The position numbers and the translations under genes were made by a program. Source: Isoetes taiwanensis (lineage: Eukaryota > Streptophyta > Lycopodiopsida > Isoetales > Isoetaceae). From it: a stretch of DNA of 64,000 bases. Numbering within the stretch: the first letter of the stretch is position 1; each line of letters begins with the position of its first letter. The stretch is taken from NCBI GenBank assembly GCA_021234155.1, contig JAJEKV010000010.1, positions 9,962,406-10,026,405 of the forward strand, written 5' to 3'. Under the pieces are notes generated by a model. That model made no database searches. It was not told where the DNA came from and saw nothing but the letters and a program-made list of their open reading frames with translations. This document shows, piece by piece, positions 19,704 through 62,222 of this stretch.

Positions 19704-22700
19704 TTAAACATCTTCATAAAATAATAGATGAGTTTCCAAATCCTCATCTAGCTCATCACTCTCACTCAAACTATCTGAATTATCAACATTAACAGCAGTG
19801 TGAGAACTTAAACAAGTATCCCTATGTTGGAGAAGTTCAATCAAATATTTTCCCAACATATCACTATTAAGTGTAAAAAGGGTGGGCAGATCGTTGTAAT
19901 GAATACCGTGTTTATCTCGAATTGCTTCATAGGCCCTACATCGAAGCAATGTATGATCTTCATCCTCAATCTAGTTTGAGTCACATACCTTGCAGTATCT
20001 TTGATCTCGTGGTATGATATGCCCCCATCTCCCCACTTCTACTCCCAAATGGTGGGAGCTAAGACGGATCCTGCAGATAGAATGTCTCTTTTGTATTGAA
20101 ATATTTTCCTGTAAGTGTGTAGATGGCGTCAAATTCGGATTTATGCTTTGCTTGTATAAGATCATCTTAGTTTTGGGCTGCCTCTACATCTTCATAAGTA
20201 TCTTCTTAGAGATCCATTGTCTTAGATCCGAGTCAACCAAGATCACTTCATCCCATTGGATATCCCATTTTTGGAGCGATTTTGTTACATCATGTAATAA
20301 TCCTTTCTCTTTACTTGATATCAAAGCTTTGTGAGCAAGCCGAGATTCATCCAATGCCAACACCTTCTTAAGGTACATAATACACCTCAAAATAGCTTCT
20401 CCCTCAAGTGGCATTAGCCCACTTTCCGTCAACATCATAGGGTAGGGTGTTTGAGCTTTCACTCCCAACTCAAGCCTTAAGAACTTCTTCAAGACTTGTT
20501 CTATATTATCCCATAGACATTGCGGAATGCTTGGCCCCCAAATTTCAGATCCATATAGGATTACACTTTGCACAAGTGACTGATACAGCTTTACTTTAAG
20601 GTTCCAAGACCATAAATGAGACCTCCTACACATGCTATGCAACGCATATAAGGCTCTTTGCCCTCCATCAACTCGTTGTGAAATACACATATTCCATCTC
20701 CTGCTGAAAATAAGGCCCAAGTATTTATAAGAATCACATATACTCACAAGACTCCCTTTATATCTGAAAATAGGTTCATGTTTGAGAGCACCAACTGTCA
20801 TAACACTTGTCTTGTATAAGTTCACTTGCATGCCTGTTTGATCACAAAATGCAGCCAATCCATCTAGGTGTTTTTGCATGTGTTCTTTTGATCTTGCAAA
20901 TATAACAACATCATCGGCATACATCAATAACTGTACAATGTAGCCATGTACTTCAGTACCTCCTGGGCAATTATTATGTAGCCAAGCCTCTAGACCATCA
21001 ATGAACAAGCCAAATAAGGTGGGAGACATCGGGCAACCCTGTTTCACTCCAATGTCACTTTCTACATGGGCTGAAACATCTAATGAAAAAGGTTGTGATA
21101 ATTCTACAAGCACCTTCTCATAGTCATAGAGCACCTGTACTGCAGTTCTAAGCTCAAGTGGCACATTAAGCATTTCTAGTCTTTCCCATAATTGCACACG
21201 TGGAACCTTATCAAAGGCTTTCTTAAAGTCAACGAATGCCACATACATTGGTTTTTTTGTTCCTTTAACATTATCAAAGACCGTTTTCAACACCAACAAG
21301 TGGTCCAATGTGGATCTGCCCGACCTAAAACCAGCTTGCGTTACTGCCCTTTTTTGATTGACTTCTGCCCATAAGCTCAATTTTTTCTCCAAAATAGATG
21401 CAAAAAGTTTTGAGAACAAATTACTTACCAGAATTGTTCTATAGTTACTTGCATCTTGTCTAGATCCCCCTTTGAATATCGGCATCACTGCTTCTCGCAC
21501 CAATCAAACGGGAAGCCTTGTGCCAATGCAAGGTTAAACATGCAGTAATGATAGGAACAACACTTGGACCTGCCCATTTTAGATGTTCAAAGACTAAGAG
21601 AATTCAGATATGGTGCTTTACCATTTGATAACGATGTAATGCCATCCTTTACCTCCTCCTCTTTAATTACCAATGTCGATCTCACAATGTTTGTGTTGGG
21701 TGGCTGTTGATTATGGTAGAGAGCCATTACATATTGCCATAGCTCCTCCGCTTCAAGTGGAATATCATTGCTTTTAGTCTTCTTAAGGCCATTCCAAAAA
21801 GTTTAGGCTCGTCTAGATATCTTTGACACAAAATCTGGCTGCCTTTGCTTGATATATTGCCTTTTCTTACACCTTATAACACGCTTTTATAGCGGCCATA
21901 GTGCATTTTAAGATGCTGATCACATGTTTGCCAATCGACGCTTAGCATTTCGGCATTCTCGGTCGAACCATGCTCTACATGGTAGGCCTCCTCTGGTTCT
22001 TTGAGAGATAAAAGATCTCCCTGTTTTGCATCCTCTAAAAGCTTTACTAGTTGGCTGTTCATGGCATTCAGATCCCCTTCCCATTGTAAATTGGCTGCCT
22101 TGTCTTCAACACAAGAGCGGTACTGATTATGGAGATGAGGCTTCAAAAAATATTACTTTTGCTTATATTGATCTTTGATAACAGGTCGGTCAACCTTTAG
22201 AGAGAAATGCAATGGGTTATGGTCTGATTCAAGCTCTTCATTCCCTACTGTAAAATTGATGACGTCACACAATGATTCTTCTGCCATAACTAAATAATCT
22301 ACAGTACTCCTTGCTCGACAAGTGTTATTCATGGAATGAGAAAATCTGTCCAGCCCATTACATATTATCAAATTTGCGCTGCCACATAAGCTGAGAAACT
22401 GCCGCCCACTTTTAGTTACAGTTAGATCCTTTGACCGTCTTCTCCTTCCCGAGATTTGCATATCATGATCGTCCATCTCTTCCAGCCACAATGGGTCCTT
22501 ATCCCCTGTGAGTGAAGCAGTCTGTAGAGTGCCAATCCTACTATTAAAATCACCCGCCAATATTACCTTGCCTCGTGCTTGGAAATCCATAATGTCCTGT
22601 TCCAAAGCAAAGAACAAGTCATCCTGAGATGCATCAGTTACTACTGAATATGTTTTTGTGTGCTTGGGAGCAAAATAACATACCGCCATGAAATACGGGA

Positions 22701-26303: not shown

Positions 26304-26910
26304 GAGGTAAACAATATTTTTGAAATTTTAATGCATCTAAACCCGTATGCCAAAACCTTAGATGATGTTCTAGTTTCAAATGACAAAGAGCAAAGTGGCT
26401 AAATGCTATGAAAGAGGAAATGGATTCTTTTGTCGACTGATACCTTTGAAACAAAGGAACACTCCAGAGGGTAAGAATATAGTAGGCAATAAATGGATTT
26501 TTAGAATCAAAACTGGAGCAGATGGTAAATCACCTAAATACAAAGCCAGGCTGGTTGCACAGGGGTTCTCACAGAAAAAAGGTCAGGATTTTGATGAAAC
26601 ATTTTCTCCTTTAGTAAAAATGAACAGTGTCAGAATGCTACTGGCTTTGGCAAATGCATGGAATCTAGAAGTGCATCACATGGATGTAAAAACTTCTTTC
26701 TTAAATGCAAAATTAGATGAGGAAATTTTCATGAAACAAGCACCAGGATTTGAGCAAGGGGAAGATAAGGTTTGGAAATTGAAAAGGGCAGTTTATGGGC
26801 TAAGACAATCTCCTAGAGAATGGTACAAATGCATGGATTCTTATCTTATTGAACAAGGATTTGTTAAGTTTTTGAATGATGGGAATTTGTATAAATTTGA
26901 GCCTAGATGA
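26304..26910 (+). pseudogene. copia reverse transcriptase, first (truncated) copy
   Basis: N-terminal RT half: NKWIFRIKTGADGKSPKYKA, RLVAQGFSQKKGQDFDETF, MDVKTSFLNAKLDEEIFM and YGLRQSPREWYKCMDSYL, ending at NDGNLYKFE. It is cut before YVDD by minisatellite sequence. The same segment is repeated at 27,545-28,138. Confidence 0.9.
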
Positions 26911-26928
26911 CTAGAATGATGGGATTTG

Positions 26929-27547
26929 TTTGAGTCTAGGTGACATGTTGGAGCCTAGATGGCCCGCATGGCATGTTTGAGCCACTTTGGCATATTTGAA
27001 CCACCTTGGCATGTTTGAGCCTAGGTGGCATGTTGGAGCCTACGTGACACGTTTGAGCCACCTTGGCATGTTGGAACCTAGGTGGCATGTTGTGAGCCAG
27101 CTTGGCATGTTGGAGCCTAGGTGGCATGTTGGAGGCTAGGTGACATGTTTGAGCCACCTTGGCATGTTGGAGCCTAGGTGGCATGTTGGAGCCCACGTGG
27201 CATGTTTGAGCCAGCTAGGCATGTTGGAGCCCACGTTGCATGTTTGAGCTTAGGTGGCATGTTAGAGCCTAGGTGGCATGTTGGAGCCACCTTGGTGTAT
27301 TGGAGCCTTAGTGGCATGTTGGTGCCAACATGGAATGTTTGATCAACCTTGGCATGTTGGAGCCTAGGTGGCATGTTGGAGCCCCAAGGGGGCATTTTGA
27401 GCTACCTTGGTATGTTTGAGTCTAGGTGGCATGTTGGAGCCCGCGTGGCATGTTTGAGCCACCTTGACATGTTTGATCCACCTTGGCATGTTTGAGCCTA
27501 GGTGGCATGTTGGATCCTAGTTGGCACATTTGAGCCACCTTGGCATG
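26929..27547 (+). repeat. 19-bp minisatellite patch inside copia
   Basis: Bases 26,929-27,547 match 17,102-17,776 of the large array unit by unit, including rare variants such as GTTGTGAGCCAGCTTGGC and GATGGCCCGCATGG. One deletion of about 56 bp corresponds to 17,308-17,362. It lies between the two copies of the RT segment. Confidence 0.93.
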
Positions 27548-28840
27548 AGGTAAACAATATTTTTGAAATTTTAATGCATCTAAACCCAGAAGTGCCAAAA
27601 ACCTTAGATGATGTTCTAGTTTCAAATGACAAAGAGCAGTGGCTAAATGCTATGAAAGAGGAAATGGATTCTTTTGTCGACCGATACCTTTGAAACAAAG
27701 GAACACCCGTGAGGGGTAAGAATATAGTAGGCAATAAATGGATTTTTAGAATCAAAACTGAGTAGATGGTAAATCACCTAAATACAAAGCCGCTAGTTGC
27801 ACAGGGGTTCTCACGGAAAAAAGGTCAGGATTTTGATGAAACATTTTCTCCTTTAGTAAAAATGAACAAAGGTCGAATGCTACCGGCTTTGGCAAATGCA
27901 TGGAATCTAGAAGTGCATCACATGGATGTAAAACTGCTTTTAAATGCAAAATTAGATGAGGAAATTTTCATGAAACAAGCACCGTGATTTGAGCAAGGGA
28001 AGATAAGGTTTGGAAATTGAAAAGGGCGCTTTATGGGCTAAGACAATCTCCTAGAGAATGGTACAAATGCATGGATTCTTATCTTATTGAACAAGGATTT
28101 GTTAAGTTTTTGAATGATGGGAATTTGTATAAATTTGAATGTCAAGACGGTTGGTGCATTATTGCTTTATATGTTGATGACAACATTATGGTGACAAAAG
28201 GGAAAAAAATGTTTATTGATGTGCAAAAGCTTGTTGAAAAGCGATTTGAAATGTCGAACCTTGGAGAACTTACAAAGTTTTTAGGGATTGAGGTGTCAAG
28301 AAATAGAGATGAAGGTACCATCATTTTAACTCAAAAAGAGCAGATCAGAGGTATGCTTGAAAATTTTAAAATGAAAGAATGCAATATTAGTAAAACTCCT
28401 GTTGCACCAGGATGTAAGCTTTCTCTTGACATGTGTCCTAAGAATGATGAAGAAAGGAAAATCATGGAGAAAATTCCATATAGATCTTTAACAGGATGCC
28501 TAGCCTATGTTGCTAATTGCACAAGGCCAGATATTGCTCATAGTGTAAACATGCTCAGTAGATACAACAATGATCCAGGGAAGGAACATTGGATTGCTGC
28601 AAAACATGTTCTGAGATATTTAAAAGGCACTATTGATATGGGAATTGCATACAATTCAAAAAACTTAATATTGACCGATTTTGTGATGCCGATCAAGGTG
28701 AGATTTAGATGCAAGAAAATCAACATCGATACCTTATGATGCTTGGAGGAGTTTTTGTAGCTTGGAAGTGCAAAAACAATCATCTATAGCATTGTTCATC
28801 GCAGAAGTTTAGTATGCCTCACCCACATTATATGCAAAAA
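27545..28840 (+). pseudogene. copia RT second copy plus RNase H
   Basis: Repeats the 597-bp RT segment (27,545-28,138) with many small differences, then continues with CIIALYVDDNIMVTKG (catalytic YVDD near 28,165), LGELTKFLGIEV, TPVAPGCKLS and PYRSLTGCLAYVANCTRPDI. RNase H follows: HVLRYLKGTIDMGI, LTDFVMPIKVRF (DADW-type box damaged). Past 28,739 it is shifted and degraded (GGVFVAWKCKNN). Confidence 0.9.
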
Positions 28841-32890: not shown

Positions 32891-35800
32891 TTACATATTG
32901 CTTTCAAAATTATAAAATAAATCATCTAGTGCATCCTCTGAAAATAATACACTGGGCTCCTCTACATCTACCTCCTCTACCTTTTCTTGCTTCAGTCTCT
33001 CCTCTCTATATTCAAGGATGTCAACAATACACCCGCCAATGCACGAACTGGGATACAGAAAGAACCTATCAAGTGAAGTAGCACTGATCCCATACCTAGC
33101 CCTTATATCCGAGTATGCGCGACAGAAGAGCAAGACGTGAGCCTCATCTTCCACCACTCCCGCATCACATATCTTACAATGCCTAAGCTCATGTGCAATA
33201 TCTGCCCATCTTCCAACCTCCACACCAAGCCGATGTGAACTCAACCTTATTCTAGCAATTGCTTGCCTGAGTTTCACTGATATAGGCTCTCTAAGATACT
33301 GCGCTTCCTGCAAGGAGGGATTCAGCTGAGACCTGTAGTACTCCTTCTTCACAGCTGGCACGTTCCACGACTTATTTAGAAAACTCTCTCGCACCCAGCC
33401 ATCAATATCTTCTTTGTGCATCTCCAACTCCTGGATATTCATCCCCCATTTAATAAGCCATCTGTTAACATCAGCATACCCGCCTTTATTCCTGGTTTCT
33501 TCTAGAGCAAGTCTTGGCAGGCTATTGATCGGCATATCATATAAGACCTTACACATGTAGCGTAAAAGTCTGCAAAGAGCTTCAGCTTCCAATGGCATCA
33601 TCCCGCACTCCACCAGCATCATGTCATAGGGTGTTTGCATCTTAGTACCCAGCTCAGTGTGAAAAAATTTCTTTTGTATTTTCTCTACTTTTTTCCATCT
33701 GTCATTAGCAAGGCCTGGCCCCCAAACTTCGCAACCATATAGCACCACAGTCTGTACAAGCACCTTATAAAGCATACGCTTCATTTCAAAATTCCAAATC
33801 TCAGCATTTACGCACTTTCTTTGCATAGCATACAAAGCCTTTAGACCAGCATTCACTCTATGTTCAACCGCTTGGTTCCAATTAGGACTCTTGTCTACAT
33901 TCAAACCCAAATATTTATAACTCTCTACAACCTCCACTTGTGTACCTTTATAATGTAGGTGTATATGATCTGTCCTATTCGCCCCAAAAACCACAGCTTT
34001 GGTCTTATCCAAATTCACCTGCATGCCCTTAGCATCACAAAATGATGCAACCACATCTAAATGCCTTTGCATCCCTTGTATGCTCCGAGATAGCAGTACA
34101 ACATCATCAGCATATAGCAAAAGCATAATTACATACCCATACAGAGGTGTGCCATCTCCTCCATGTGCATGTATCCACCCTTCAAGCTGGTCAATGGATA
34201 GGTCGAACAGGGTAGGTGACAGGGGACAACCTTGTTTCACTCCCATGTTGCTTTCTACCACTTCATCGCATAATTCTACAAAAGGAGATGATAATTGCAC
34301 CAGTACCTTAGCATAAAGTACACTTACAGCATGCATAAGCTCAGTTGGGATGTTCAAGTCCACCATGCCTATTCACCATGTCAAAAGCCTTACTAAAGTC
34401 TACAAAAGTAGCATACATGGGTTTCTTTTTTCCCTACCACTGAATCCATCATAGCACGGAGAGTGACTAAGTGATCGACTTTGGACTTTTTGGGTCTAAA
34501 ACTCGCCTGCCCCATAGCTCTAGCATTGTGATCTTCCGTCCACATGTTTATTTTGCGCTCAAGTATAGAGGCAAACAGCTTTGCATACAGGCTGCCAACC
34601 ATTATGGTACGATAATTACCCGGATCAGATACATCCCCTGATTTATATAGCGGCACTACCCTATTGACCTGCCAAGATACTGGAAATCCTTCTTTTAGAG
34701 CCATATTAAACATACTCACCAGTTTATTTGCAATTTAGTTCCCCGGCCCATTTAAGCATCTCAGACATAAGGCCACTAGCATCCGCGGCTTTACCGTTTG
34801 CAAGTCTCTTGAGTCCATCTTGCACATCATCTATCGTGAAAGTAAGCATATCAACAATAGTGTATGCGTCTTCCGCCATCTTAGCCTCTGCTCCAGGCAC
34901 ATTATATAGCTTTCTCACCTGCGCCTCAACATGCAGCCCATTAGCACCATATTTCAGGGGTTTAAGTCTATTCCAAAATTTTTTTGGGTCAACCAGCAGT
35001 TCTTCCACCATTTTCTTATGTTTATTGTATAAGTATGCTTTCTTTTTGTTCTTGATCAGCTTAATGTACATTTTCCTCTCGTGTACCTTATCCCCCCCTG
35101 TGCTGCTTTGAATTTTGCCCTCTGCTGCTTACACTGCATGTCAAACCACCCATTACAAGGCAATCCCATCCGTTGACGATAAGAGACAAAGCAACTATCT
35201 GCTGATTGAAGCAAAATTTGGGTCAATGTATCACTCATTTTCTATACTGAGTTAGGCCATACCAAAGATGCCACTTTCTGCTCACATATCTCTCTATAGT
35301 CACCTGCTTTGTTATATTTCAAATGTACCCGCTTACTTTTATTTGGAGCATCCCGCTGCATATATTGCCACTGCACCCCGACTTCAATGAATACCGGTAC
35401 ATGATCCGAATTTTCGTTTTCATCTCCAATCGTCAAACTAACAACATGTTCTGCAAAAGAGGGTTTAGCAATGATGTAATCTACCACACTTGCATTTTTA
35501 CACGTGCGTTTACCCGAGCCTGGGTATCTAGTTGTACCATTATAAATCACCATTTCAAAACCACTACACAAATGCAGGACATGACGTCCTTGCAGTGTTG
35601 GCCATTTCACACAGTCGTCTGATATCCTGTTCCATCCAGTCATCTCTAACTCACCAATGTCCAACATCTCTAACCATTCTGCCTCTCCATCTGGACTGAC
35701 CAGAGCTGCTTGTTGATTCCGAGTACGCCCGTTAAAGTCTCCTAACAGTAGGACTTCTCCTGTCATACTCAAAGCCAAAATATCCTGCTCTAAATGAAAA

Positions 35801-37362: not shown

Positions 37363-37765
<403 letters not shown>

Positions 37766-37799
37766 AACAAGGTGACCTAGCAAATGCACTAATGACCTG
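37766..37799 (+). repeat. Left terminal inverted repeat
   Basis: 34 bp starting AACAAGGTGACCTAGCAAAT, complementary to 47,571-47,604 except one base. It is preceded by TGCT. Confidence 0.9.
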
Positions 37800-38089
37800 C
37801 GTTTGCACCACAAAAAGGAATCTTTCAAAGATTCCCTAAAAAAACCTAAAAATTGCCACTTTTGGGGGGTCAATTGAAAAAACAGCCCTCAATTTGGATT
37901 TGTGACACCCCTTTTTTGATCCAAAATTAGAAAACTTTTGCTGTTTTGTGAATTGTAGACACCCAAACAAGCTGTAAAATTGGAGTCACCTTTTAAGAAA
38001 ATGTAGGAAATACAAGAAAACTAGCAAAATTAAAGAACCATTAAAATCTTCACAAGAAATGAAAGCAAGATTGGCAAATCTAGGCGTAT

Positions 38090-38319
38090 CTATTTGTTAT
38101 TACTCAAGAAGAACCACAAGGTGCTATGCGCAAAGATAGGCAAATGTAAAACATACAAGACATAACTAACATGTCCGATAGCATTTGGCGCTTTATACAA
38201 GACATGAAAAACATGGATGAACTTGGAAGAAGCTATGCGAAAGCATGTACAAAACATGTACAACATGTACAAAAAAACTCTAGCCAAAACTAGGAGGTAA
38301 CGATGTGCCCACATTTAGA
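38090..38319. other. Short dispersed ACATG repeats
   Basis: Non-coding part between the left TIR region and the DUF7869-like gene end. It has several ACATGTACAAAACATG- and ACAAGACATG-like pieces and degenerate dyads (GGTGCTATGCGCAAAGATAG at 38,111). No gene seen. Confidence 0.45.
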
Positions 38320-41300
38320 TTATACAAGAAGTTTACTACCTTTGAGAAGAGCAGGATTAGGAATGTCGTTATACTCGTCAACTCCTTCAGACTCGTCACC
38401 ACTGTTCTCGTTGCCACTCGCCTCATTGTCACTTGAAGTGGTCGAAGAGCTAACCGCTGGAACACTGTCCTCATCCTGGGAACCTTCGTCTGAACTATCT
38501 TCGCAGAAAGACTTCAGTAAGTTAACTGTTGTCGCACGTAGCCTCGTTATCAACCTTGAGAGTAAAATCATAAGCCAAAGACTTGAGTTTCGCTCAGTCC
38601 GCATTGTCCATGTGATTCTTATTCATCGCTTTCCCGCCCTTCTTGAAAGGAATTATCACAGATCATCATACCGACCAGCAAAAGGATCTTCAGATCCTTA
38701 GTGGCGCACGTGAACTTTCACTACCGGCGGGAGATTGTCTTTGAATACAATGTCCTTAACCCGCCAAGAATCCGTAAAGGACGCCTTCATCATCATCGGG
38801 CGAAGGTACAACTATAAGCATCCCCTTAGACAAATCCACAAGTTTTTCCGAGTTTGGCCTTGGTTCTTTTTCAAGGCACGCCTACTTCCGGGGGTACATT
38901 ACACGATCGTTCCTTGTTGACTTCATCATCGCAGAACACGGAACCCTTTGCAATTCCTTTGATCTGCCTCAACAAGGGGATGAACTTGAGTACCGTGCCA
39001 ACAAAAAGCAACTTCCGTGAGAGATGTTTGTTGAGGGATTTAGTTGCATCCCCGCATTATTGAAAAGAAATTCTCCCACCAGCCTTTGTCCTCCTCAAAT
39101 CGGCACTTAAAACCCGACCTTATACTTTTCTCCATGCCGGTCGATTGAGACGGCGGGATTTTGTCCTTGTTCTTTTCTCAGTAGTCTACGGCACTTTTCG
39201 GGTCGCTGAATAGCCCTTCTCATTACCTTAGTTTCGTGAACATATTTTAAATATTGTAGGCCCGCCTCGTGCCGCCAAGTTTGGGAGGTGACAAAGTACT
39301 TCCCTTGAAGTTGTGCTTTACCGCCCTTGAGAAAAAAATTTTTACATGATGTTGAAATGTCAAATTATTCAACTTATGGATAGCAGGACCTCAGATCACC
39401 ATGACGCCGGAAAACAAACTCACGAAAATCAAAAGTCTCGCTAAGCACTTCGACAACTGGAGTCGGATTGTATGCTTGCTCAATCACACTGCACAAGGAG
39501 TGTAGACAAAATGCTTTTTTCCTTCGCAACCGCACGTAAAAATCTGGCCAACATTTGGTCTATCCGATCATGGGTGTGGCCCACAAGTAAGAAACCAACC
39601 TTGACCTTTCGAAAGATACCCAAATAACCAAAGATTGGCGCAATAAGCAAATAAAACTTGATTTTTATTTTCTCTAGTAGTATTGTCTAACTGTAAGTAC
39701 AACACTGGAGGCAGCTTCTCCTTTGCCAGCAAAATCTTATTTAGTATTGTCACCGTGAGGTTAGGATCGCTGTGTATATTTGATAGGTCAAAAATACTCG
39801 CGACCGCATAAACACCATGAAAGATCATCGCCCCAACCAAATGAAGCCTCAAAAATCTGATTCATCTAAATCCTTTGGAACATTTACAAAATGGGGAAGT
39901 GAGGTCTTCTTTTTGGTCCATGCCGCCTACCACCACGGACATATATTCGAAAGTGGCCTCTCCAAAGATTTCTTTCTATGTTTTGCTAGCTTCTTTCTCC
40001 AAGGCTTGAGCCTCTCGTGAACTTGCAACTCTTGAGTTATCCGATCCGCAATTAAGACATTAGTCAAGACCTTGAAGCAATAGTAAGGCTCCGCAAACTC
40101 CAAGCTAAGCTTTTGTAGCCGTGCTATGTGTTTGATAGGCAAAGCTTGTCGCTACCTTTGAAGCAACAAAGAAGGCTCCACTTAACCGTAGCTAAGCTTT
40201 TGTAGCCGTGCTATGCGCGCATAGGCAAAGCTCCACAGAATTGCAAAAGCTTTTGTAGACGTGCTATGCGCGCATAGGCAGAGCTACTGGGGGAAGGGGC
40301 GATCTACAAGATTGAAGAGACCTGTTGTGCGAGTACTACAAGATTAAAAAGACCTGCTATGGCCGCATAAGACAATGTCTCTAGTCGTGCTAACGAGAAG
40401 GGATTAGACGAAAGGGACGTACTTTTTTCTAGAATATCCTTTGCCATTGATCGTTTTTCCTTTAATGTGGAGCAGCTAGTACACACCGAAAATCTGTGCC
40501 TCTTCGGAATCCTAACAAGATTAAATTCTTGCTTCCACAACCTCAAGAAGTAGGAATAGGATATGAACTTCTGACTTGAACTCTGGAAAAGATCCTTGTA
40601 CATGCCGTAGACTTCCTTCTTAGTAATACTGTCTGTCAGATGATATACAGGACTGTTTGGAAGTCGCTCACAGTTAGAGTCAAAGAAACCTACCAGCCAA
40701 GCTTTTTGCTTCTAGGCAAGACATATCCGACAACTTTCTTTGGGTGTGAATAGTCATCAATGCAGTTCCTGCCTAACCTCTTTTGCACTCTTGACATGCG
40801 ACGACTTCCAATGGCATGTATTCTTTTAAAAGCAAGTTGGCACACTGTGTTGCTCGAAACATAGTATGAAAAATTGTCTCCAACTTCAGGCCTTACACTG
40901 TATGCCAAGTACAACTCTTGATCACCTTTCGACATTGACAAAAACCGTTGTCTTATGTTCTTTAAAGACGAAAATGTAAAGGCCTGTAAGCATTTTTTTC
41001 AAACAATTCGGTCTCCTCGGCTTTCTCATGTAAGACAGTCCCATCAATCGCCACAAGATAACAAATCTAAAAGCTTTTACCGATCCCTCTTAAATCTTTT
41101 TTCGCGATCTTTGCATCGGGTTTTTCACGCAGGACTTTTATTCCGAAAGCGATGTCCGTGGTAGGTCTTTTCGTGAGTGCGTAACCGCACGCTCAAACAC
41201 GGGTCATCAGCCTTTGTCGCCCTCAACGGAAGTGCCGTGTCCGGCAGACAAATAATGTTCTCGACTTTCTTCAGAACTTGAAGGTCTTCCTCCTCGAAGC

Positions 41301-41624
41301 CCTTTACGTTAAAGAAGGGCCAAAGCGACACGCGAAAGACATCTCTCCCTCCGAATCTACAATATATTGCAACGATTCGTGGTAGTTCCCGGAGAGGTGA
41401 AGGAGTATCAAAAATAGAGTGAGTACGCTTGAGTAGGGGAAGAGGAGAAGATACTTAGGATTGTGGCGGGGGAGGGTGTTTTGAAAAACCACGAATGTTT
41501 GTAAAATGTGTTTTGGAGATGGAGTTTGAAAAGAGGTAGACACACGCGGTAGATGTAAAGGGAGGGAGATGGTGTGGAGGAGGTAGCATCCGGAGAAGCG
41601 TGTATCGGTGTTCTTCATCGTCAC
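38320..41624 (-). pseudogene. DUF7869-like protein, candidate transposase (copy 1)
   Basis: Fragments in order on the minus strand: a tail of VSFALWPFFNVKGFEEED-like residues (41,340-41,130); VCQLAFKRIHAIGSRRMSRV (about 40,860-40,800); WKQEFNLVRIPKRHRF with CTSC (40,535-40,460); VVVGGMDQKED (39,930); LQLDNTTRENKNQ (39,690); FLTCGPHP-like where GHTHD is expected (39,575); an acidic C-terminus SEGVDEYNDIPNPALL (38,395-38,345). From memory this order matches uncharacterised DUF7869 proteins, whose D..LDN..GHTHxD pattern looks like an RNase H-fold active site. The gene is broken by many frameshifts. Two CTATGCGCGCATAG dyads lie between fragments (40,211; 40,264). Transposase function is inferred. 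Confidence 0.65.
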
Positions 41625-42640
41625 CTACCGGTGTGGGTGTGTTGTAACGACTAATGAGTCAATATCGCCACATTAACAGAGGACTTGAAGTAAAATCGTC
41701 TTCGGCGTCGCTCTCCATTGCCGCACAAGGAAGAGTGACTTGTTTCAAACCATTAAACCCTCTCCCTTCAAACCTGCAAGTCTACATGCCCATGCGCCAA
41801 GATAGAAAAGCAAGCACACACGTAATATACACTAGTTGCCCATGCGGCGCATATAGACGGGGATAAAATATGTCTATGTGCGATACTTCAATCTGAAAAG
41901 TAGATGCCACACAACCAAGAAACATTACAAAATATTAGACATTATCTCCACAAGCCAATGCCCGCAAACCAAAACTAGATGTGTATGCAAGAATTCATAG
42001 ACGAAAAGCAAAGTACCTAACACAATATAAATACGAAAACATATGGAGGCATTTGCACATACAGACGATACTCCAAGGCGCGACCTCCGAAAAATTTGCT
42101 CTTCCGCTTTGAACTGTAGCATCTCCATAGAGTTCTGCGATAAGCGTCGCCAAACATGATTGTGGGAAGGTAATGTAAACATCTCAACCCGAAGAGCGGT
42201 TTACGCATTACTTGTTAGAAATTTTATACCAAATGTAGCCCGTTTAGGGTCTTTTGGTTAGAGTCAAAGATAGTTGATTTTTAGCTTTTTGACATCTTGT
42301 TTGCCAATTTCTTCTTGGGCAAAGAGCATTTAGTGTTTTTTTTTTTCATAGTCTATCTTGGCGATAATGCGTTCTCGTTTTTTCTTATTATTGTTTTTGC
42401 GCCGCATCGGCATATTGGTTTTTCTTCTTGTATTGTCTATGCGCGCATAGGCACCAACATTTTTAGCAACCCTTGTCTATGCGCGCACAGGCATTTACCT
42501 TTTTTATCTGCCATTGTCTATGCGCGCATAGGCATAATGTTTTTCACTTCCGGGAGTCCATGCGCGCATAGGCCTTTCCAATGTTAGATCTGCTTGTGCA
42601 TTTTCTAGCAGTCTTTTAATATGTTTTTTCTGTCTTGTAG
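41625..42640. promoter_or_regulatory. Divergent intergenic region with dyads
   Basis: Lies between the two divergent genes, so both promoters and first exons should be here or at its edges. Four CTATGCGCGCATAG-type dyads are clustered at 42,437, 42,477, 42,518 and 42,558 (two with one mismatch), about 40 bp apart. I could not define a TATA box or the first exon of the methyltransferase gene. A T-rich stretch and TGTCTTGTAG at 42,631-42,640 look like a 3' splice site. Confidence 0.5.
42437..42571. repeat. Cluster of four CTATGCGCGCATAG dyads
   Basis: 42,437-42,450 and 42,518-42,531 are exact; 42,477-42,490 and 42,558-42,571 have one change. Other copies in the element: 40,211, 40,264, 43,076 (in an intron), 44,215 (intron, one change), 45,800, 45,840 and 45,881 (intron), 47,195 (with an extra GC) and 47,363. 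None falls in a coding segment. Confidence 0.95.
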
Positions 42641-44466
42641 AACCAAGAAAAATCCTGAAGCAGGCTCCTCCCAGAAAGCTGCCAAGAAGAGGAAGTCAAC
42701 AAAGGCTAAGAATCAACCGAAGGGTGATGCACCTACACCATTCATGATCACCGAGGACGGTTCCTATTTCTGTAAGGACCAGCAGTGGCTACTTGTTAGA
42801 GGAACTGGTGAGCCTGTGACGGCCCATTTTTTGTACCTGTACATTTGTGACAGTTTTGGTAAAGAATCCAAAGAGTTGGATAGCTTCAAGAGATGTGGCA
42901 GGTTAATAGATACCGAGCTCTTCGGTATGTATCATATTAACTGCACCACAACGACTAAGGGGGCTCAACATGTTTACTTTCGGTGGACCCCATTTCTTTA
43001 AGCTCACCATTGCCTCCCCGAGGACATGCAGGGTTACATTCAGGCCCGAATGAAAGCAAAGATTGTAAGTATTGTCTATGCGCGCATAGCCTAAGAAACT
43101 TTAATGTTCTTCTTGCGCTAAAAAAATGTTACTTTCCAGGATCTTGTCACCATTTTGAAGGACCTGCTATTGTGCAAGGATCATATTTTAACTTCTAGTG
43201 CCTCTGTTCCTAAATTATTGAAAGATGCAATGCCCTCTGTTCCAAAACTTACCCTTTCTAAAGCAACGGGGAGCGCCACTTTGCATCTGGTCGAAGATGT
43301 GGAAGAGGAGGAAGAAGTAGAGGAAATCGAAGAGGAGGATGTAGAGGAGGATGTAGAGGAGGAAGAGGAGGAGCCACCTAAAAAGAAAGGAAAGAGAAAT
43401 TATTACAAGGCTGGCCTGGTTACAACCACCGAGCCTCCACTCTCAAAAGCTGCCAGGAAGGCCCTTAAGCAAGCTTTGCCGTCAGGACCGGGCACGAAGA
43501 TAGCAACTAAGGAGAAGGACATGGCATCTAAGAAGCTCGAGGAAATCGAGCTGAGATGTCGTGTACCCGGCATCATGCATCTCTCTGTGGACTGTGTGAA
43601 GCTTGCACCTAAGGACGAGCAAGGTGTAAGACAATTGCAAGTCCGTAAAATTTACAGTGGCCACTTAACTGCACTGAAAGAAAGAATAAGAGACAGGCCG
43701 AATGCAGCCACAGCTCCACATATATGTATAGTTGATCCTGCCCAGTGCAATGATAAGGATCTGTTTGTTAAGGAAGAGGACGAGAACTACAAATACTATG
43801 TTTTAGGGGGCACCCACAGTTTCAAGGCAAGAAGACAGCTATACAAGGAAACAAAGGAGCACTGCTTCTCACAAATCTTTGCCTTTGTTTACGTGGGTGT
43901 CACGGACTCAGAGGCAAAGCTGCTTGCAATGAGCCACAACGTGGACAATGAGTATCGGATGAGTATGAGCTTCACAGATAAAATTAAATTCATGCACAAG
44001 GAATATGAACTCTTCCGTTCAGAGCACCAAGGTGAGAAAGATATTAAGGATGACCAGGCTCTGTACCTGGCCTTAAAAGAACAGTGCGCTACTGAGTGCT
44101 GCCTAACTTACTCCACCTCAGATGCCAGAGCATCTCTTGTAAAATATGATAATTATTTTTAGTTAGCTTTCCGTCATGGACGTGTAAGTATTTTCTCTCG
44201 ACCTTCGCCTTTGGCTATGCGCGCATGGCTCTTAAATATTTTTTTAACATGCTTGTTGTTTTCTATGTTAGGTCTGGGAGCTACAAGAAAAAATTTTTGA
44301 CATGTTCTCTGAAGGCACTTTAAAAACTAAAGGCAAGTCAACGGATTCCAAGAGGAAGAAAAATGAACCCGCAAAGCAAAAGGATATGGGTATAATGGCC
44401 TGGCGTGAAATGCAAGGCCTAAAAAATGTTGACAAAGTTTGTGAGGTCCTGCAAAAGGTTGTTGAT

Positions 44467-45508
44467 GTCGTCGATTCGCGTAGCGAATCGCCATTCTTGC
44501 TCAAGACGAGCATGCATGCATTGCATGCGTCGCATGCATGCATCGCATGCATTTTGGGCCGTTCATCAGGTTGGGCGTTTGCTACTTATTGTGGAATTCT
44601 TCATCGACGTTTCATCGGCGCTTCCTCTTCTCTCAGCAGTACCTATTTCTCTTTGAATTGTTTCCAGGCAGGGGAGGGGCTTCTTCCTGCCTGGTTTGGC
44701 CAATTTGGCGTTGCTTTCTTGTCGTCTTTTTCCGCCTTTAGCCTTCATCCCGGTGACCTTCGGCCCTCGATCCTAGTTTGTTAAGGAAGTCCTTTGGTAT
44801 TCGGGCGCTTTGTTGGTTTCATGCGAGTCGCAGCAGTGCAAGAATGTCGCCGATTCGCGTAAATCGCCATTCTTGTTTCAAGACGAGCATGCATGCATTG
44901 TATCGGCGCGTGCATGCATGCATCGCATGCATTTTGGGCCGCTCATCGTTTGGGCGTTTGCTACTTATTGTGGAATTCTTCATCGACGTTTCATCGGCGG
45001 CTTCCTCTTCTCTCGCCAGCACCTATTTCTCTTTGAACCCACCCTCCCCCTTCTTTGTTTATTATTTTTGTCGCGTGGCACGCTACAGAATCAGCCCCCT
45101 CCACTCACGGAGGTTTGTTTTGTTTTGTTTTTTTTGGTGTTGGTGATGTGCGTGCACGTTGGCGAAGCGGCATCTGCTTCGACTTCTCCATTCGTGGGTT
45201 TTGGGAGCGATTTCTCTGCCTTAGCGTTTGTCTAAGCCCTTGTCGGTTTATCACTAGGGTTTTTCCTCGAAACCCGAAGGGCGGGTTTTTAATCCCGTGA
45301 TAAGCTTTCGCAGTACACCAACCAAACATCCGTTAGCATTGTATTTTTGGGGTCCAAGCGATATAATTGGATTTTCCCTTTATTTTTTGTGGGTAGTTCG
45401 CATGTGTGCGGCTACCCACTATCCACCATTGTAGAAAATCTGCTGAGATGAATGAGAAGCCTATCTATGGGCGCTTTGTTGGTTTCATGCGAGTCGCAGT
45501 GCAAGAAT
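44467..45508 (+). repeat. Duplicated block within the methyltransferase gene
   Basis: GTCGTCGATTCGCG at 44,467 and GTCGCCGATTCGCG at 44,847 start two related units. They share ACGAGCATGCATGCATTG, TTTTGGGCCG, TTTGCTACTTATTGTGGAAT and the end GCGAGTCGCAG.. GTGCAAGAAT (44,846; 45,508). The second is longer and contains a GTGGGTAG/CTACCCAC hairpin (45,390-45,421). It lies between DKVCEVLQKVVD and CKNKQFTLEEMQ, either as intron or as insertion. Confidence 0.75.
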
Positions 45509-45797
45509 AAACAGTTCACTCTGGAAGAGATGCAGAGAGAATTTAAACAGTAAGCCTACATTACACACTTACGTTTTTTCCAATGTTTGTTATTAACCTC
45601 TTGGAACGCTTGCAAACAAAAAAGATTGTGCACTCGGCCGCCATGTAGCCTAATGGTTCACCTCAATCGCGACAAACCGGGAGAAGGTGCGGAATTATAC
45701 CCCACGTGGTCCTCAGACGAAAAAATAAATCAATATGCCACCAACTTTACCAACTGGGTATGTCATTTCTTTCTCCTCCTTGCTGCTTGAGTTCGTG

Positions 45798-45905
45798 TGC
45801 TATGCGCGCATAGCATGTGATTGAGGGACCTTGTGGTAGTGCTATGCGCGCATAGCACTACCACAGGTCCTCACTCCCATGCTATGCGTGCATAGCACAG
45901 GAGTG
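45798..45905. repeat. Three dyads with extended arms in one intron
   Basis: TGCTATGCGCGCATAGCA at 45,798-45,815. The dyad at 45,840 is centred in a longer near-palindrome reaching GGACCT..AGGTCC. That at 45,881 is GCTATGCGTGCATAGC flanked by CCTCACTCC and GGAGTGAGG. The arms differ between copies while the core is constant. Confidence 0.9.
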
Positions 45906-47182
45906 AGGGAGCTGTCGTTTTGTTTCTTACAATTTTTTTTGGCTTTCAGAAAAAGAAAGACCCCATGCCACCTGGCTTTTTGAACATGGTCCGGCTAGCT
46001 AAGGAGGAGCGCTCAAAGCTGAAAAAGTCTCAAGAAGCTGAGCAGAGTTTGGTGCCTTCCGAGTTTGAAAGATTTGATATGTTTGGCCAGAATTGTCTTT
46101 ATCAGGTGTATCGTGGGAATTGTGTCAAACTCGACCACACTTTGAGACCTGGCAACTATTCCTTGTGCATTGCTGACATACCTTACGGGTTTAAGTTGCC
46201 TGACAGCCGTGGTGATGACTCACCATTTACGTACGCGGAGTTTGATTCTTTTTTGGGAAGGTTTGTTAAGATAAACACCGCCCGCCCGGAGGATTGTCGC
46301 TCTTCCACTCCACTAACCAAAGCCGGTATGGTGCAAGCGGCTATGAAGACCCACCGCAAGGTCTGGTTACGGGTGCCATATGGTAAGCATCTAGTTGTTT
46401 TCCCATGCGCATAGCTAATACAAAAGTGTTTCCTTTCTTTGCGTGTTAAAGACCGAATATTAGGGGAGGTGGTGGTGCTAGACTTGTCAACGTGTGGGGA
46501 GCAGATTCACATAGGCTACCATAGCGTGATTCAAGCGTAGAAGCCAAATGCACTATAACACTACCGGCATGGATTTTCGCAATGCTTTTCAATGCCCAGC
46601 CAGCCTTACAAAAGCTTACGTACCCAGTTCACCGTGGACGCATTGTCAATCCCTACCGTAAGCCTCGAGACTAATTAACACGCTCCTGGACATGTTCTCG
46701 CAACCTGGAGATTGGGTCGTTGACGCATTTTCAGGGTCTGGCACCACGTTAGCTTGTGCATTACAGAAGGGCGAAATCACAGAGCCATTGACGCCGACGC
46801 AGATGCGAGCATACATCAAGTCACGCGGTCGGCTTCCTTACACGCCTTGCTCGGACGAAAACAGAACTTGGGATCAAGGATAAGGATGGTGTTCCGCCTT
46901 CTCCTCGTTCGAGCACGTGCCTCCTCTTACCGGGAACACTGACGATCAAGCTGACTATGTCGAATTGATTCCCGTCGAAGATCCACTTAAGGTCACACAG
47001 GTTGAAGGTTCGGCCGAGTCTGAGGAAAATCTAGAAACTACTAAGCCTAAGTCTCCTGCAGGTTCTGAATCAGATGAGGAAATACCTTCAAAGGATGTTC
47101 CTTTGGATATTTAAAATTTCTGGTCCAAAAGTTAAACATTTTATTCTATGTGCCCTATTTTAAATGTAATATATTCCATTAA

Positions 47183-47506
47183 TGACTGTCATGTCTATGC
47201 GCGCGCATAGGCTTTTTCTCTTTCAGTTGCATTTTGTTGGTCTAAAAAGTTTGTCTTTTACTTTGTTTAAAAACAAGAAAACCTGCTTGTCTTCGAAATG
47301 TGGATTTCTTTAGGCTCACTGCGTTTTTTAAATAAATTATAATTTAATAAGGACTGTCTTCTCTATGCGCGCATAGACTTTTCTCTTTTCAGTTGCATTT
47401 TGGTGCTCCAAAAAGTGTGTTTCTTACTTTGTCCAAAACCAAGAAAACCTGCTTGTCTTCGAAATGTGGACTTTTTTTAGGCTCACTGCGTTTTATGGGC
47501 TTGTTT
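47183..47506. repeat. 168-bp tandem duplication near the right end
   Basis: GACTGTC, the dyad, CTCTTTTCAGTTGCATTTTG-type sequence, AACCTGCTTGTCTTCGAAAT and GGCTCACTGCGTTTT occur in order twice, each copy carrying one dyad (47,195 and 47,363). Confidence 0.9.
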
Positions 47507-47570
47507 TTTTAAAAAATGGCTAAAATGCCAAATTTACGTGTTTTTGAAAAAGGAATCTGCAATTGCACCA

Positions 47571-47604
47571 CAGGTCATTAGTGCGTTTGCTAGGTCACCT
47601 TGTT
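47571..47604 (-). repeat. Right terminal inverted repeat
   Basis: 34 bp, complement of the left TIR except one base, followed by TGCT (47,605-47,608). Confidence 0.9.
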
Positions 47605-47608
47605 TGCT

Positions 47609-54683: not shown

Positions 54684-54861
54684 TCAAAACTTCAGCTTCA
54701 AGCAACCGCCACAACTCGCCAGAAACTCCAAGCAGACAAACATGCCGAAATTTTGAGCAAACTCCCCGATCCCGCCAAGACCACGTGCATAAATCGAATT
54801 TGTCAAATCGAGCATTGGAAAGACAGAGTTTGTTGAAACCGACTTTGTTGCCAAACATGCA

Positions 54862-55466
54862 CACCGGAGGTCATTCAAGCGGTGTGCGCTTATCATTAAC
54901 CGGTGCCTCGCATTTTGTGCAATCAATCTTAAGTGCTTTGTTCTTAAGCTGTTTCTATCCTTCAAAACATGTGCCTCATCCATAACCACACAGCTCCAAT
55001 TCCATTTCCTCAACATACTACGGTCCTCTTTTGAGGATGCACTGGGCATACCTTTCAAACGTTTGAGAAATACTTATAAAATCAACTGAATATATGATGC
55101 ATAAAATACCTGCGTCTCTTAAATAGTGAATAACTGGTGAGCAATGGTGCTGGTTGGTGAGTCTTGGCAGCATATTGCAAATCTTCTTTTGCTGACATCC
55201 GATTAGCGCCATGGAATAGTACCACATCAAAAGAAGGACACCATTTCTGTAGTTTCCTTTGCCGCCAAGCAAATGATGTCAAGCGCATACAATTAAATGA
55301 GGACCAGATCTCCTTCCAGATGTTGGAGGAGGGCTAGACATGCAAGAGCCTAACAAAAGAACTTGACTTAAGTTATACAATGCTAACAGTGTAACTTCTA
55401 GATGAACTAGCAAAGTGACTTCACCTGGACTGTCTTTCCAAGGCCCATCTCATCCGCAAGAATGGC
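54862..55466 (-). pseudogene. Captured exons of a CHR19/SMARCAD1-like SNF2 remodeler
   Basis: Three SNF2 pieces in order. Exon 55,466-55,426 encodes ILADEMGLGKTVQ (motif I, ATP binding) and is bounded by TTACAG and GTGAAG. About 55,300-55,160 encodes GPHLIV, then after a slip LQKWCPSFDVVLFHGANR (motif Ia region) and TSYSLFKRR. 55,030-54,900 encodes KWNWSCVVMDEAHVLKDRNS (motif II DEAH) and ARHRLMIS, where TGTPLQNDL would be expected but reads AHRLNDL. The wording is closest in my memory to plant CHR19 (SMARCAD1/Fun30/ETL1 group). The rest of the ATPase is absent, as expected for a Helitron-captured fragment. Confidence 0.78.
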
Positions 55467-58475: not shown

Positions 58476-58596
58476 AGTGTATTCCGGAATACACTATCGC
58501 CTTCAGTCGAAGGCAAAAGTGTATTCCGGAATACACTTTCGCCTTTCCGGAATACACTTTTGCCTTCGACTGAAGGCGATAGTGTATTCGGGAATA
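58476..58596. repeat. TATTCCGGAATA dyads and 43-bp inverted repeat
   Basis: AGTGTATTCCGGAATACACT, a perfect 20-bp palindrome, occurs at 58,476-58,495 and 58,518-58,537, with half sites at 58,546 and 58,581. The segment 58,488-58,530 is the exact complement of 58,546-58,588. Related sites occur at 58,285 (TATTCCAGAATA), 58,834 (GTATTCCAGAATA) and 58,908 (GTATTCGGGAATA), all outside recognised exons. Confidence 0.92.
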
Positions 58597-59259
58597 AGAA
58601 ACAGACATGCAAATGATTGTACGTTGTACTTTCTTACTGACCTGTCCATGGTTGGTCTATGTGAATCGGAATACGCCTCTATTATAATCGGAAATACCGG
58701 CGCCGGCGACTTTGAGCTCGAGACCGAATACGCAAACCGGCGGCGCCAAAATTTCCTTTTAAAGGTATCATTTTCGCCTTGCTCTTTTTCTATGTGTCAT
58801 GGAATACGCTTAGCTTTACTATCCTACTCTTGTGTATTCCAGAATAGCTTTTACCTTGACTTTCACTTGATTAGTACTGGAACTTCTACTTGTACTACGT
58901 GGGCGTGTATTCGGGAATAAGAAAAGCTCTGCACCACAGAAAGTTTCTCAAGTCTCTTTACTATTTTGCAGTTGTTAAGATGACGAACCGCCGTGAACAA
59001 GCTTCCACCACCATTTGTTGTCTCAAGCTCGTCTAGTTCTCGAGGACACGCTTGAGAACAACGCCATTTCTAGTACGTGACCGGCATTCTCGGACTCAAC
59101 CTCTCGCTTCATCGTTGTTGCTTCTCGAAGACACACCGAGTCCAAAGACGTAATGTAAATCCACCACCCTTCCAACCGGCCACCAAGTCCTCGTAGACAA
59201 AGACACCGGCATCTCCTTCCAAAGAATCACCACCGGTTGAGCATGTTGCCACCACCCTT

Positions 59260-62222
59260 TGTTCCATCCCCGGACAACCTACATGAAGCTCCACAACAAC
59301 GGGTGTTCAAGAACAAGCTACCCCCTCCCCCCATTTGTTGCTTCTTTCATCCAAACATACAAGGAACACGTAAGTAAAGAAGACCGTGAGATTCACTACA
59401 ATTTCTCCCACCAGACTTCACTACAAATGAGGACGACGCCGAGCAAGCACTCCTCTTCACACAACAACGGTTGTGACACATGGATTTGCGTAATTCCAAA
59501 TCGCTCAAGGAGATGTTTGCAAGAACTCCTTTTCAAGATGGTACAAGAACAAATGATGCCACAACCTCTTATGGGCCATCACCACCCTTTAACACCTGCA
59601 CCCAGCCCTATTCCGGAACAACTTCACGTGGTCTTTTTCCTCTACAAGCACACCACTCGTGACGAGGAAGTCACCCCGAGTAGAAGTTTCATCCCGGAAG
59701 ATGAAGACACCAACGAGGAACAAAGAGATTACATGTTCTCCACCAATCTTCAAAGAAATTCAAGGTGGATTTTGGTTTGAGGGCTTGCTCCTCCAGAAGA
59801 AGAAGAAATCTTATGGATGAACACAAAATGAGGAGACTTTTGAGGACTAAATGCTGCTCATTGGGTTGCATCAGCAGATTTAACATGGCTAAATTACGAG
59901 CGCTTAGAGACAACTACAGCTCCATGACATTGGCACTGCAATGCTTACTTAGCTTATAATGTAAGACCAGACCGCAACACCTTCTTGCACTACATTAACC
60001 GGCCAAGAAGTTTGCCGAAATGCTTTATGGTTGTCCACCGCTTAGGGTCCACCGTAATGTCTAGAATACACAAAAGATCGACAAAAATCCAAAGAATCGA
60101 TGATCATTGCGACCAAGAAGAGTTGTAACCATGCATGCCCTTGTCAGCCGTGTCATGGATGGAGAAATATTTTAGAGAAACACGTGAGAAGCTACCTAAC
60201 AAAGAACATGTATCATTTAACCGATAACATCACCAAAAAGATGTTTTTAATGAGTACAAAGAGACTTGCACTCGCCTTCAAAGACATCTCTTACTCACAC
60301 TTCACCGACCGTGGAAAAGTGAATTCGGTTTAGTGAAAATTCGAGGAGACACAGTAATGTCCGCTTGCTCAAGGTGTGCGTAATTAAAAAAGTCAAAGAG
60401 AAACCGCAAAAGACAGAGGTCGAAAGAAGTAAGCTCATGTTCTTCAATCTCTCACTTGTTTTAAAAAAATGCTTTGACCTTATTTCTTCTACAGATATTG
60501 TGCAATGAGAACCTTGCCGCATATCGTGAACAACAAGCGCCAGAGAGAAGAAAGCTTGCCAAGCATAGAAAAAAAGCTCTTGAACGTCCCACCGCAATAC
60601 ATGTTTGTTGTGATTGATGGAATGGACCAAAAACAACTCTACCACATTTCTTGAACATTCCTAAAGATGTGCCAGAGGAATGTTTTGTTAAGGTCCACCT
60701 TTGTAGGAGCTATGGTCTTCAAAGGAAGTCTAAAGTGCAAAGTATTTTTGACGATCCAAACTTGCATGGTGACCCGAACCTCACAATTACAATTCTTAAC
60801 AAGGTCCCGTAGGCGAGCAAGAGCAATTACCACCCGCAGTGCTTTATCCGCAAACTTGACAATACTACAAGGGAGAACAAGAATCAAACACTCTTTATGC
60901 ATCGCCATGTTAGTGGAGCTAGGGATCTTTAGAAAAGTGAAGCTCGGTTTCTTACTTATAGGCCACACTCATGATCGATTGACCAAATGTTCAAAGAGAT
61001 TTTCTGGTGGTGCCTTAGAAGGAAGAAGGCTTTCTGCCTTCCTTCTTTAGTTCAATTATTGAAGATTCTTACACTCCTACTCCAAAGGGTCGATCTTCTT
61101 AAAGAGACCGCTGATTTCAGAGAGTTTATTTTCTCTCAACGCTCAAACAGAGAACAAGTCGTGAACAAGTTGAATGATCTCACCTTTCAACATCATATCA
61201 AGTTCTACTTGAAGGATGGCCAAAGCTTCTTCTGGGGAAGAAGTATACCACAACTAAGGACCTGAGTCCACCGTAGGGATTACGCTTCCTTAAATATATT
61301 CCGCATTACACTTCCATCATAGAACGTCTTTGCGACTTCCTCTCAAAAATCCTAAGGAGTCCAAGGTAATAGAAAAGTACCCCGTAGTCATCCTTAAAAG
61401 CCATTGAAAATGTAATTTCCTCAGGGCTTTAAGTACTTTTTAGAAGAAGATCTGGATGTGGTGGAGTAATTTCTTTCTCAACGTAAAATTGTTGTACAAA
61501 ATATAGCTCTAAGACAGGTTGCAAGAACCATTTCAATGGCCTAACACCTTCCATCAACCCCAAAGACCAAGCAGTGTCCAAGCAAAGGCTACATTTGCAC
61601 CCGCAGAGAAGACGAGGGAGGACCGAGCCATGTACCTCTGGACCAAGACGCAAAATGAGCCTCAAGGTAATATCACGTAAATTACCAAAGGTATGCTAAT
61701 TGCTCTTCCGACCGAGGAGGATGACAAAGGTCGACCGCTCGATAGTAAAAGTGCTTGACACACCAAGGAGGAAGGCTTAGTCACTAAACTCAAGATTCAT
61801 TGGCTTGCAACACGCCGAAAAATGCTTTTGAAGGTAGATATGAGTTAGAAATGAGAAGCCAAGGAAAAGGGAGAAAGTCCAAGAAGGTGGGTTGTAGGGA
61901 CGAAATAACCTTAATGACGGACTATATTGTGCTATGATTTTAAATTGAAATCGACAATCGCCACGCCGCATTTACTATCAATTTGCTTAAAAAAGCTTGT
62001 AATTACGAAGAAGATGATGAAGAAGGTGGTGACAATGCTTCACCGTCTGTTGATAGTGATGAGGAAGATAACTCAAGCACTTCCTCGAGTGACAGTGAAA
62101 GAAGTGAAGGTGATGACGATGGCATAAATGAATATGAGGACGTCCTGGATCCCTCTCTCATCACTCCTCACACTTTTGCACATAACCGAAGTCTTAGAAA
62201 AGATCAGAAATTTTGCATGTGA
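59260..62222 (+). pseudogene. DUF7869-like protein, candidate transposase (copy 2)
   Basis: Fragments in order: KCCSLGCISRFNMAKLRALR (59,850-59,910); SWMEKYFRETREKLPN (60,150-60,200); LAAYREQQAPERRKLAKHRK (60,500-60,570); VVIDGMDQK-like across a frameshift (60,610-60,630); VPEECFVKVHL, DDPNLHGDPNLTITILNK (60,670-60,810); KLDNTTRE (60,855); LVELGIFRKVKLGFLLIGHTHD (60,908-60,975); FQHHIKFYL (61,185); acidic tail ..RSEGDDDGINEYEDVLDPSL (62,100-62,160). It shares IDGMDQ, LDNTTRE, the GHTHD position and the INEYED/VDEYND tail with copy 1, and preserves the third motif better. The start is unclear: 58,985-59,800 is open in places but not recognised. Broken by many frameshifts. Confidence 0.68.

Follow-up and report, generated by a model that had tools for sequence, protein, structure and literature searches.

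A 64,000-bp stretch of the Isoetes taiwanensis genome (contig JAJEKV010000010.1, positions 9,962,406 to 10,026,405; hereafter the window, numbered from its first base) contains an element bounded by terminal inverted repeats (TIRs) that is most likely a decayed copy of a plant DNA transposon. The element holds a gene of the DUF7869 family and a gene for a fusion protein in which, as predicted from homology, an N-terminal region is followed by a ParB-like domain, and a linker joins this domain to a permuted DNA amino-methyltransferase. Copies of a palindrome are scattered through the element, and their half-site, ATGCG/CGCAT, appears to be common to the window and to related genes of the liverwort Riccia sorocarpa. 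These features suggest that the fusion protein may recognize the palindromes of its own element and methylate DNA there to label or shield the element, a reading to which we assign a probability of roughly 45%. The original prediction, made from the DNA letters alone, had described the fusion and proposed that the transposon modifies its own DNA; its observation was confirmed and its interpretation is partly supported, while the DUF7869 gene, the broken state of the copy, and the element-specific palindromes go beyond it.

Palindromes in the element and their signature in Riccia

Matches to the palindrome CTATGCGCGCATAG in the window occur only within the element. With up to three mismatches, all 16 matches fall inside the element span, with 0.97 expected in the whole window; with up to two mismatches, all 12 lie within the element and none in its coding pieces, and the 13 matches to the 10-bp core (at most one mismatch) are likewise all internal. 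The density of half-sites is 4.98 per kb inside the element vs 0.69 and 0.98 outside. Introns account for 18% of the fusion-gene span once a nested insertion is excluded, and they contain all five of the palindromes with up to two mismatches in this gene. Three of the four intact modelled introns carry palindromes, and in the fourth (46383-46449) a shortened version is recognizable by eye. The copies in arrays are spaced by 40-42 bp, or about four helical turns (Table 1), and an odd-type copy, ATGCGGCGCAT, is located at 41842.

Protein searches, which were sensitive only to proteins of suitable length with shared short exact words and do not imply absence elsewhere in plants, returned only R. 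sorocarpa, with 34 gene models (P0001-P0034) on eight contigs, consistent with an assembly of eight chromosomes (PMC11735767). Four pairs of models have adjacent locus tags and are possibly halves of one gene, which gives about 30 loci. The proteins are deposited as hypothetical, or in a few cases as ‘DNA methylase N-4/N-6 domain-containing’. Some of the models hold stretches without counterpart in their paralogues that resemble translated introns, and these stretches carry HA[SPTA]H, MRRM, and PC[AVGD]AW, which correspond to CCATGCGNCGCATGG read in each of its three frames. Such palindrome signatures were counted 26 times in 7 of 22 Riccia proteins and, in the enlarged set, 29 times in 9 of 34 proteins vs 0.26 in shuffles; those in P0009 are spaced by 42, 42, and 42 bp. 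Among P0001, P0003, P0005, P0009, P0017, P0020, and further models, translated introns are apparent in some and exons are missing from others, so that the annotation of these genes is unreliable.

A test of all 6-bp half-sites, both odd and even, was based on 4-residue patterns with residues in words common to at least three proteins masked. The half-site CATGCGNCGCATG ranked first (18 vs 0.06 expected; nominal p about 4e-38, a value that takes the copies as independent, which paralogues are not; next best 1e-6), and the top signal has the form CATGCG-N-CGCATG. The test was devised after a cruder control had been seen, in which 3-residue patterns were used, conserved protein was left unmasked, and ATGCG ranked 23rd of 1024. 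Chance occurrence of the palindromes was rejected by the window expectation and by the shuffle and half-site tests in Riccia. The Riccia proteins share with the window element both the protein family and the half-site signature, and the ATGCG palindrome accompanies the ParB-methyltransferase gene in both lineages at hand. The Riccia genes may likewise be located in transposons.

The palindromes might alternatively be transposition sites for the transposase or another protein of the element, with the ParB-methyltransferase acting separately, e.g., in the labelling of new copies as they are replicated. Binding to repeated subterminal sites is common among transposases, and palindromes, two of them exact copies 42 bp apart, are also found near a second DUF7869 gene of the window. 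However, the palindromes are located in three of the four intact introns and far from the element ends, and the two DUF7869 genes (27-59% identical) differ in their palindrome, whereas the fusion proteins (about 30% identity) have one half-site. We therefore regard this explanation as unlikely.

The fusion gene and its predicted protein

The exon borders of the fusion gene (Table 1) are a model built from homology and splice sites. Its introns have GT/AG borders, and the gene pieces match Riccia proteins in order: the ParB-like region of exon B matches P0006 with E=2e-17, exon C gives a weak BLASTP match to the same protein (E=0.011, a single pair), and the motif I piece of the last exon shares 22 of 34 residues with P0031. 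No match to exon A was detected among the Riccia proteins. The present copy is dead and unable to make the fusion protein because of the nonsense codons in exons A and B, the nested insertion, and the broken frames of the last exon, through which no open frame runs. The motifs on which the original prediction was based are all present, namely KYYVLGGTHSFKAR (from 43791), DIPYG, and DAFSGSGTT.

The domain carrying KYYVLGGTHSFKAR probably has the ParB fold. There was no Pfam ParBc match for the window piece and P0001 up to E=10 or for a further set of Riccia models up to E=1, the best NCBIfam match of the ParB-like piece was ICE_PFGI_1_parB with E=0.019 (far under that model's cut-off), and searches of solved structures with this part returned nothing convincing. 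The comparison of a profile of 13 plant sequences (the window and 12 Riccia sequences) with one of 17 phage ParB domains gave a score of 29.3 (E=7.7e-4 as a single comparison) across 45 columns in the expected register from box II to box III, and none of 299 column-shuffled decoys scored as high (best decoy, 21.7). In this alignment, GGTHS of the window and GGNHS of Riccia are placed on the phage G-H-T-R box. The phage domains, trimmed by the box-II pattern G-x-x-R, derive from 19 loci (L001-L019), of which L008 gave two domains and L005 (short), L007 (no annotated gene at the match), and L015 (without the trimming pattern) were dropped; the phage profile was enlarged after the first result had been seen.

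The METHYLTRANSFERASE part of the protein is assigned to the N6_N4-type methyltransferases by PF01555, which matches the piece 46662-46883 with E=3e-8 and 34.3 bits vs a cut-off of 26.7. Nineteen Riccia models were scanned with the same profile; five of them (P0013, P0021, P0022, P0031, and P0032) exceed the cut-off, and P0034 falls under it (4.9e-4). Of the two domain profiles named in the original prediction, N6_N4_Mtase was recovered for the gene piece and ParBc was unmatched in Pfam, while the fusion itself is supported by the PF01555 match together with the ParB profile comparison. In the window, motif IV (46175) precedes motif I (46722), which is the permuted (beta) order, and P0034 has both motifs in a single chain in this same order, as DVPYGF (motif IV) and DLCAGSGTT (motif I). 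A comparison by hhalign of nine Riccia regions with nine phage methyltransferase sequences gave a probability of 95.3 and E=2.2e-8 over 192 columns, with no decoys run. Searches of solved structures with the methyltransferase alignment returned nothing convincing, and the search with motif I gave a weak match to RsrI-type methylases (E=0.01).

Compared with the motif IV consensus [DNS]PP[YFW], the window has DIPYG and three of four Riccia models have DVPYG, while motif I is GSGTT in five of the nine Riccia models of the methyltransferase profile. As a general rule, rather than a test, motif IV starts with D more often in N6-adenine enzymes. Because motif IV starts with D, adenine is more probably the base modified than cytosine.

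Origin, known systems, and the proposed self-marking

The inverted arms that enclose both genes (37763-37799 and 47571-47607) span 37 nt and are 95% complementary; together with the GT/AG introns, they bear out the earlier view that this gene has introns and is enclosed by TIRs. A possible 4-bp target duplication, TGCT, is present at 37762-37765 and 47605-47608, although 4 bp is weak evidence. Bacterial contamination or a recent single transfer was considered, as the ParB-methyltransferase pair is typical of phages, and a close bacterial donor was rejected. All 31 proteins returned by one of the protein searches were from Riccia, and neither a scan of a prokaryote genome collection, at the sensitivity of that tool, nor three viral scans confirmed a relative. 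In tblastn searches, P0034 had no match to phages, and P0013 had short, weak matches in 52 phage records (20 listed); a plasmid search gave 12 records (10 listed). The phage and plasmid matches among those listed are short, with 26-42% identity. Given also the introns and TIRs, contamination is very unlikely. The multicopy plant relatives and the lack of a close or near-identical bacterial source in these searches agree with the eukaryotic mobile-element setting that had been proposed, as does the match of the gene piece to N6_N4_Mtase with the proposed enzyme class.

Fusions of ParB with N6_N4 methyltransferases are frequent in phages (PMC12704722, section 7), and these appear to be distant kin of the plant proteins. 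Phage and prophage fusions resemble the window gene in that a PF01555 methyltransferase comes after a ParB-CTPase fold, motif IV lies ahead of motif I, and the setting is a mobile element. They differ in being phage genes with box II G-x-x-R and, in the five checked, DPPY, whereas the window and Riccia family has GGTHS or GGNHS, D[IV]PYG, long acidic linkers, and introns, and the window copy lies in a TIR element. The main text of PMC12704722 has no occurrence of ‘plant’ or ‘transpos’, and no report of a ParB-methyltransferase fusion in a plant transposon was seen among papers listed by open-access full-text searches.

VANDAL elements are Mutator-like elements (MULEs), and to our knowledge their VANC protein is no methyltransferase. 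Among the Pfam matches of the scanned pieces there was no VANC or MULE transposase domain (VANC itself was not compared). In Arabidopsis, VANC of VANDAL21 binds an element motif, and DNA methylation is lost as a result (PMC5735166). VANDAL21 resembles the window element in combining an element-encoded factor with arrays of a short motif in non-coding DNA and introns, often in tandem and rare elsewhere, but its motif, YAGTATTAY, is not a palindrome (PMC5735166). Dam-like adenine methyltransferases are carried by DIRS retrotransposons, and DNA methyltransferases (DNMTs) by SymbioLINE, SymbioDIRS, and KnitGypsy (PMC5890265). These are also transposon-encoded DNA methyltransferases in eukaryotes, including the charophyte Klebsormidium, but they belong to retrotransposons and are Dam-like or 5-methylcytosine (5mC) enzymes, and the account of them mentions no ParB-like domain or palindrome arrays (PMC5890265). 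The statement that plants are not known to carry amino-methyltransferases acting on N6-adenine or N4-cytosine is not supported, as the liverwort Marchantia has an N4-methylcytosine (4mC) enzyme of bacterial origin (Walker et al., 2025, cited in PMC12344493). Bdelloid rotifers acquired the 4mC enzyme N4CMT, which has a chromodomain (PMC8885841). Both are, like the window protein, amino-methyltransferases of bacterial type acquired by a eukaryote, but they are described as host genes and not as transposon genes (PMC12344493, PMC8885841).

By analogy with VANDAL21 and VANC, the fusion protein would find its own element via the ATGCG/CGCAT palindromes in introns and flanks and would methylate DNA at these palindromes, and the mark may then label or shield the element, e.g., against host silencing. 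Palindrome binding, catalysis by intact copies, the modified base, and the benefit are all predictions from sequence comparison. Among shielding, marking of new copies, and restraint, shielding is our first choice. The palindrome arrays provide the first evidence bearing on the self-modification of element DNA that the original prediction had suggested. The more far-reaching view, of a self-identifying plant transposon with its own phage-type methyltransferase and palindrome code, in which this pair is conserved between the host and a liverwort and copies are marked in a way distinct from 5mC, is put forward only tentatively.

Several observations weigh against the proposed recognition and methylation. 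Among the 16 palindrome matches, that at 45465 is located in the nested insertion and those at 47195 and 47197 overlap; one of the 10-bp core matches, at 46803 and with a single mismatch, falls in coding sequence, and palindrome arrays of other sequence are present elsewhere in the window (6.2 kb and 58.5 kb). The Riccia palindromes were read from translated gene models and not from DNA, and outside P0009 they are spaced irregularly, by 19 to 134 bp. The probability given by hhalign for the ParB comparison is 25%, and an earlier phage profile of nine sequences was not significant (E=0.076). The box-II arginine is absent in every copy seen, being replaced by S or, in P0007, by G (GGNHG); ParB-fold proteins depend on this arginine to bind nucleotides (PMC12704722), so that a nucleotide-gated clamp driven by nucleoside triphosphates is unlikely in the plant proteins. 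Motif IV is D[IV]PYG rather than DPPY, with A for D in one of four Riccia models (AVPYG in P0020), and motif I differs from GSGTT in P0016, P0020, P0032, and P0033. As all five phage ParB fusions checked have DPPY, motif IV provides no tie between the plant family and the phage fusions.

These altered motifs (AVPYG, and motif I in four of nine models), along with the broken frames of the window copy, could also indicate that the methyltransferase part has lost catalysis and serves, as a relic, only for DNA binding. However, the D of motif IV is kept in three of four Riccia models and the GSGTT of motif I in five of nine, some altered motifs are possibly gene-model errors, and DLPY is also found in 4 of 11 phage methyltransferases checked (L020-L023, selected for their match to P0013; DPPY is present in the remaining seven). 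A dead relic is accordingly improbable. A similarly low, marginally higher probability is given to the methyltransferase restraining the element or recruiting silencing, as in the 4mC system of bdelloid rotifers. Self-restraint can favour the persistence of an element, but the gene for the enzyme belongs here to the element rather than to the host. Moreover, the observed/expected CpG ratio is 0.78 in the element minus the insertion vs 0.46 and 0.57 in the flanks (reaching 0.74 in one 4-kb bin outside the element, 4001-8000), which is compatible with low exposure to 5mC but also with youth of the element.

Transposon-encoded methyltransferases and anti-silencing factors have so far been known separately. 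A phage-type ParB-methyltransferase that has plant relatives and is located in a DNA transposon beside element-specific palindromes provides a testable case of a possible self-mark other than 5mC, and such elements may have supplied bryophyte genomes with amino-methyltransferases. A public nanopore genome of Riccia has calls for 5mC and N6-methyladenine (6mA) (PMC11735767), and the prediction of methylation at the palindromes is therefore checkable with existing data.

DUF7869 genes and other features of the window

The first DUF7869 gene is presumed to encode the transposase. Three of nine minus-strand pieces match PF25273 (3.6e-20, 2.7e-10, and 2.9e-4), two of them above the cut-off and the 2.9e-4 piece below it, and these matches overlap and are collinear along the profile. 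The gene is also collinear with the second DUF7869 gene (tblastn; six pieces, 27-59% identity), for which no TIR pair was seen among the inverted repeats detected. A search of the window outside the first element revealed no other fusion gene. Near the second gene (58477-61311) there is a palindrome, GTGTATTCCGGAATACAC, which is different from that of the first element and is present in two exact copies, as noted above, and in four copies with 4 mismatches (chance rate not measured). As the two DUF7869 genes have differing palindromes nearby, palindrome arrays may be general to such elements. No paper naming DUF7869 was seen in open-access full-text searches.

Table 1. Coordinates of the TIR element, its genes and palindromes, and the second DUF7869 gene in the window.
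Feature	Position	Strand	Remarks
TIR DNA element	37766-47604	.	9,839 bp; holds DUF7869 gene and fusion gene
Left TIR	37766-37799	+	AACAAGGTGACC...; 0 expected in 100 shuffles
Decayed DUF7869 gene, presumed transposase	39374-40998	-	extent beyond matched pieces uncertain
Two palindromes between DUF7869 coding pieces	40211-40277		at 40211, 40264
Palindrome array upstream of exon A, CTATGCGCGCATAG-type	42437-42571		42437, 42477, 42518, 42558; spacing 40, 41, 40
Exon A	42641-43064	+	basic N-terminal part; nonsense codon at 42999
Palindrome in intron 43065-43139	43076-43089	.	
Exon B	43140-44187	+	acidic tract and ParB-like domain, GGTHS 43806-43820; nonsense codon 44160
Palindrome in intron 44188-44271	44215-44228	.	
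Exon C	44272-44469	+	linker (VWELQEKIF...), cut by nested insertion
Nested insertion of another repeat	44465-45508	.	borders approximate
Palindrome array in presumed intron 45551-45953	45800-45895		45800, 45842, 45882; spacing 42, 40
Exon E	45953-46382	+	methyltransferase start, motif IV DIPYG 46175-46189; 3e-9 to P0034
Last exon	46450-47114	+	motif I DAFSGSGTT 46722-46748, acidic tail; frame broken
3' flank	47195-47376		palindrome 47363 and longer variant 47195, in 166-bp tandem repeat 47180-47494
Right TIR	47571-47604	-	partner of left arm
Second decayed DUF7869 gene	about 59946-61148	+	six matching pieces; Pfam 2.9e-7

The nested insertion contains an internal duplication (44465-44657 and 44844-45037, 90%) and a Riccia-type palindrome, CATGCGTCGCATG, at 44524-44536. 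Elsewhere in the window, the region 6191-6690 is an array of about 68-bp units, most of which have a palindrome related to CTCGACTCGCGAGTCGAG, and a degenerate 19-bp unit (TTGGAGCCAACGTGGCATG) is repeated in long arrays at 15640-18107 and 26969-27547, in CpG-low bins. Fragments of reverse transcriptase of the long interspersed nuclear element type (RVT_1) and two Copia-type pieces (RVT_2) are distributed across 370-942, 20187-21503, and 32894-34372 on the minus strand and 26374-28736 on the plus strand. An open reading frame on the minus strand (54684-55073) resembles, by eye, part of an SNF2-type helicase with a DEAH motif.

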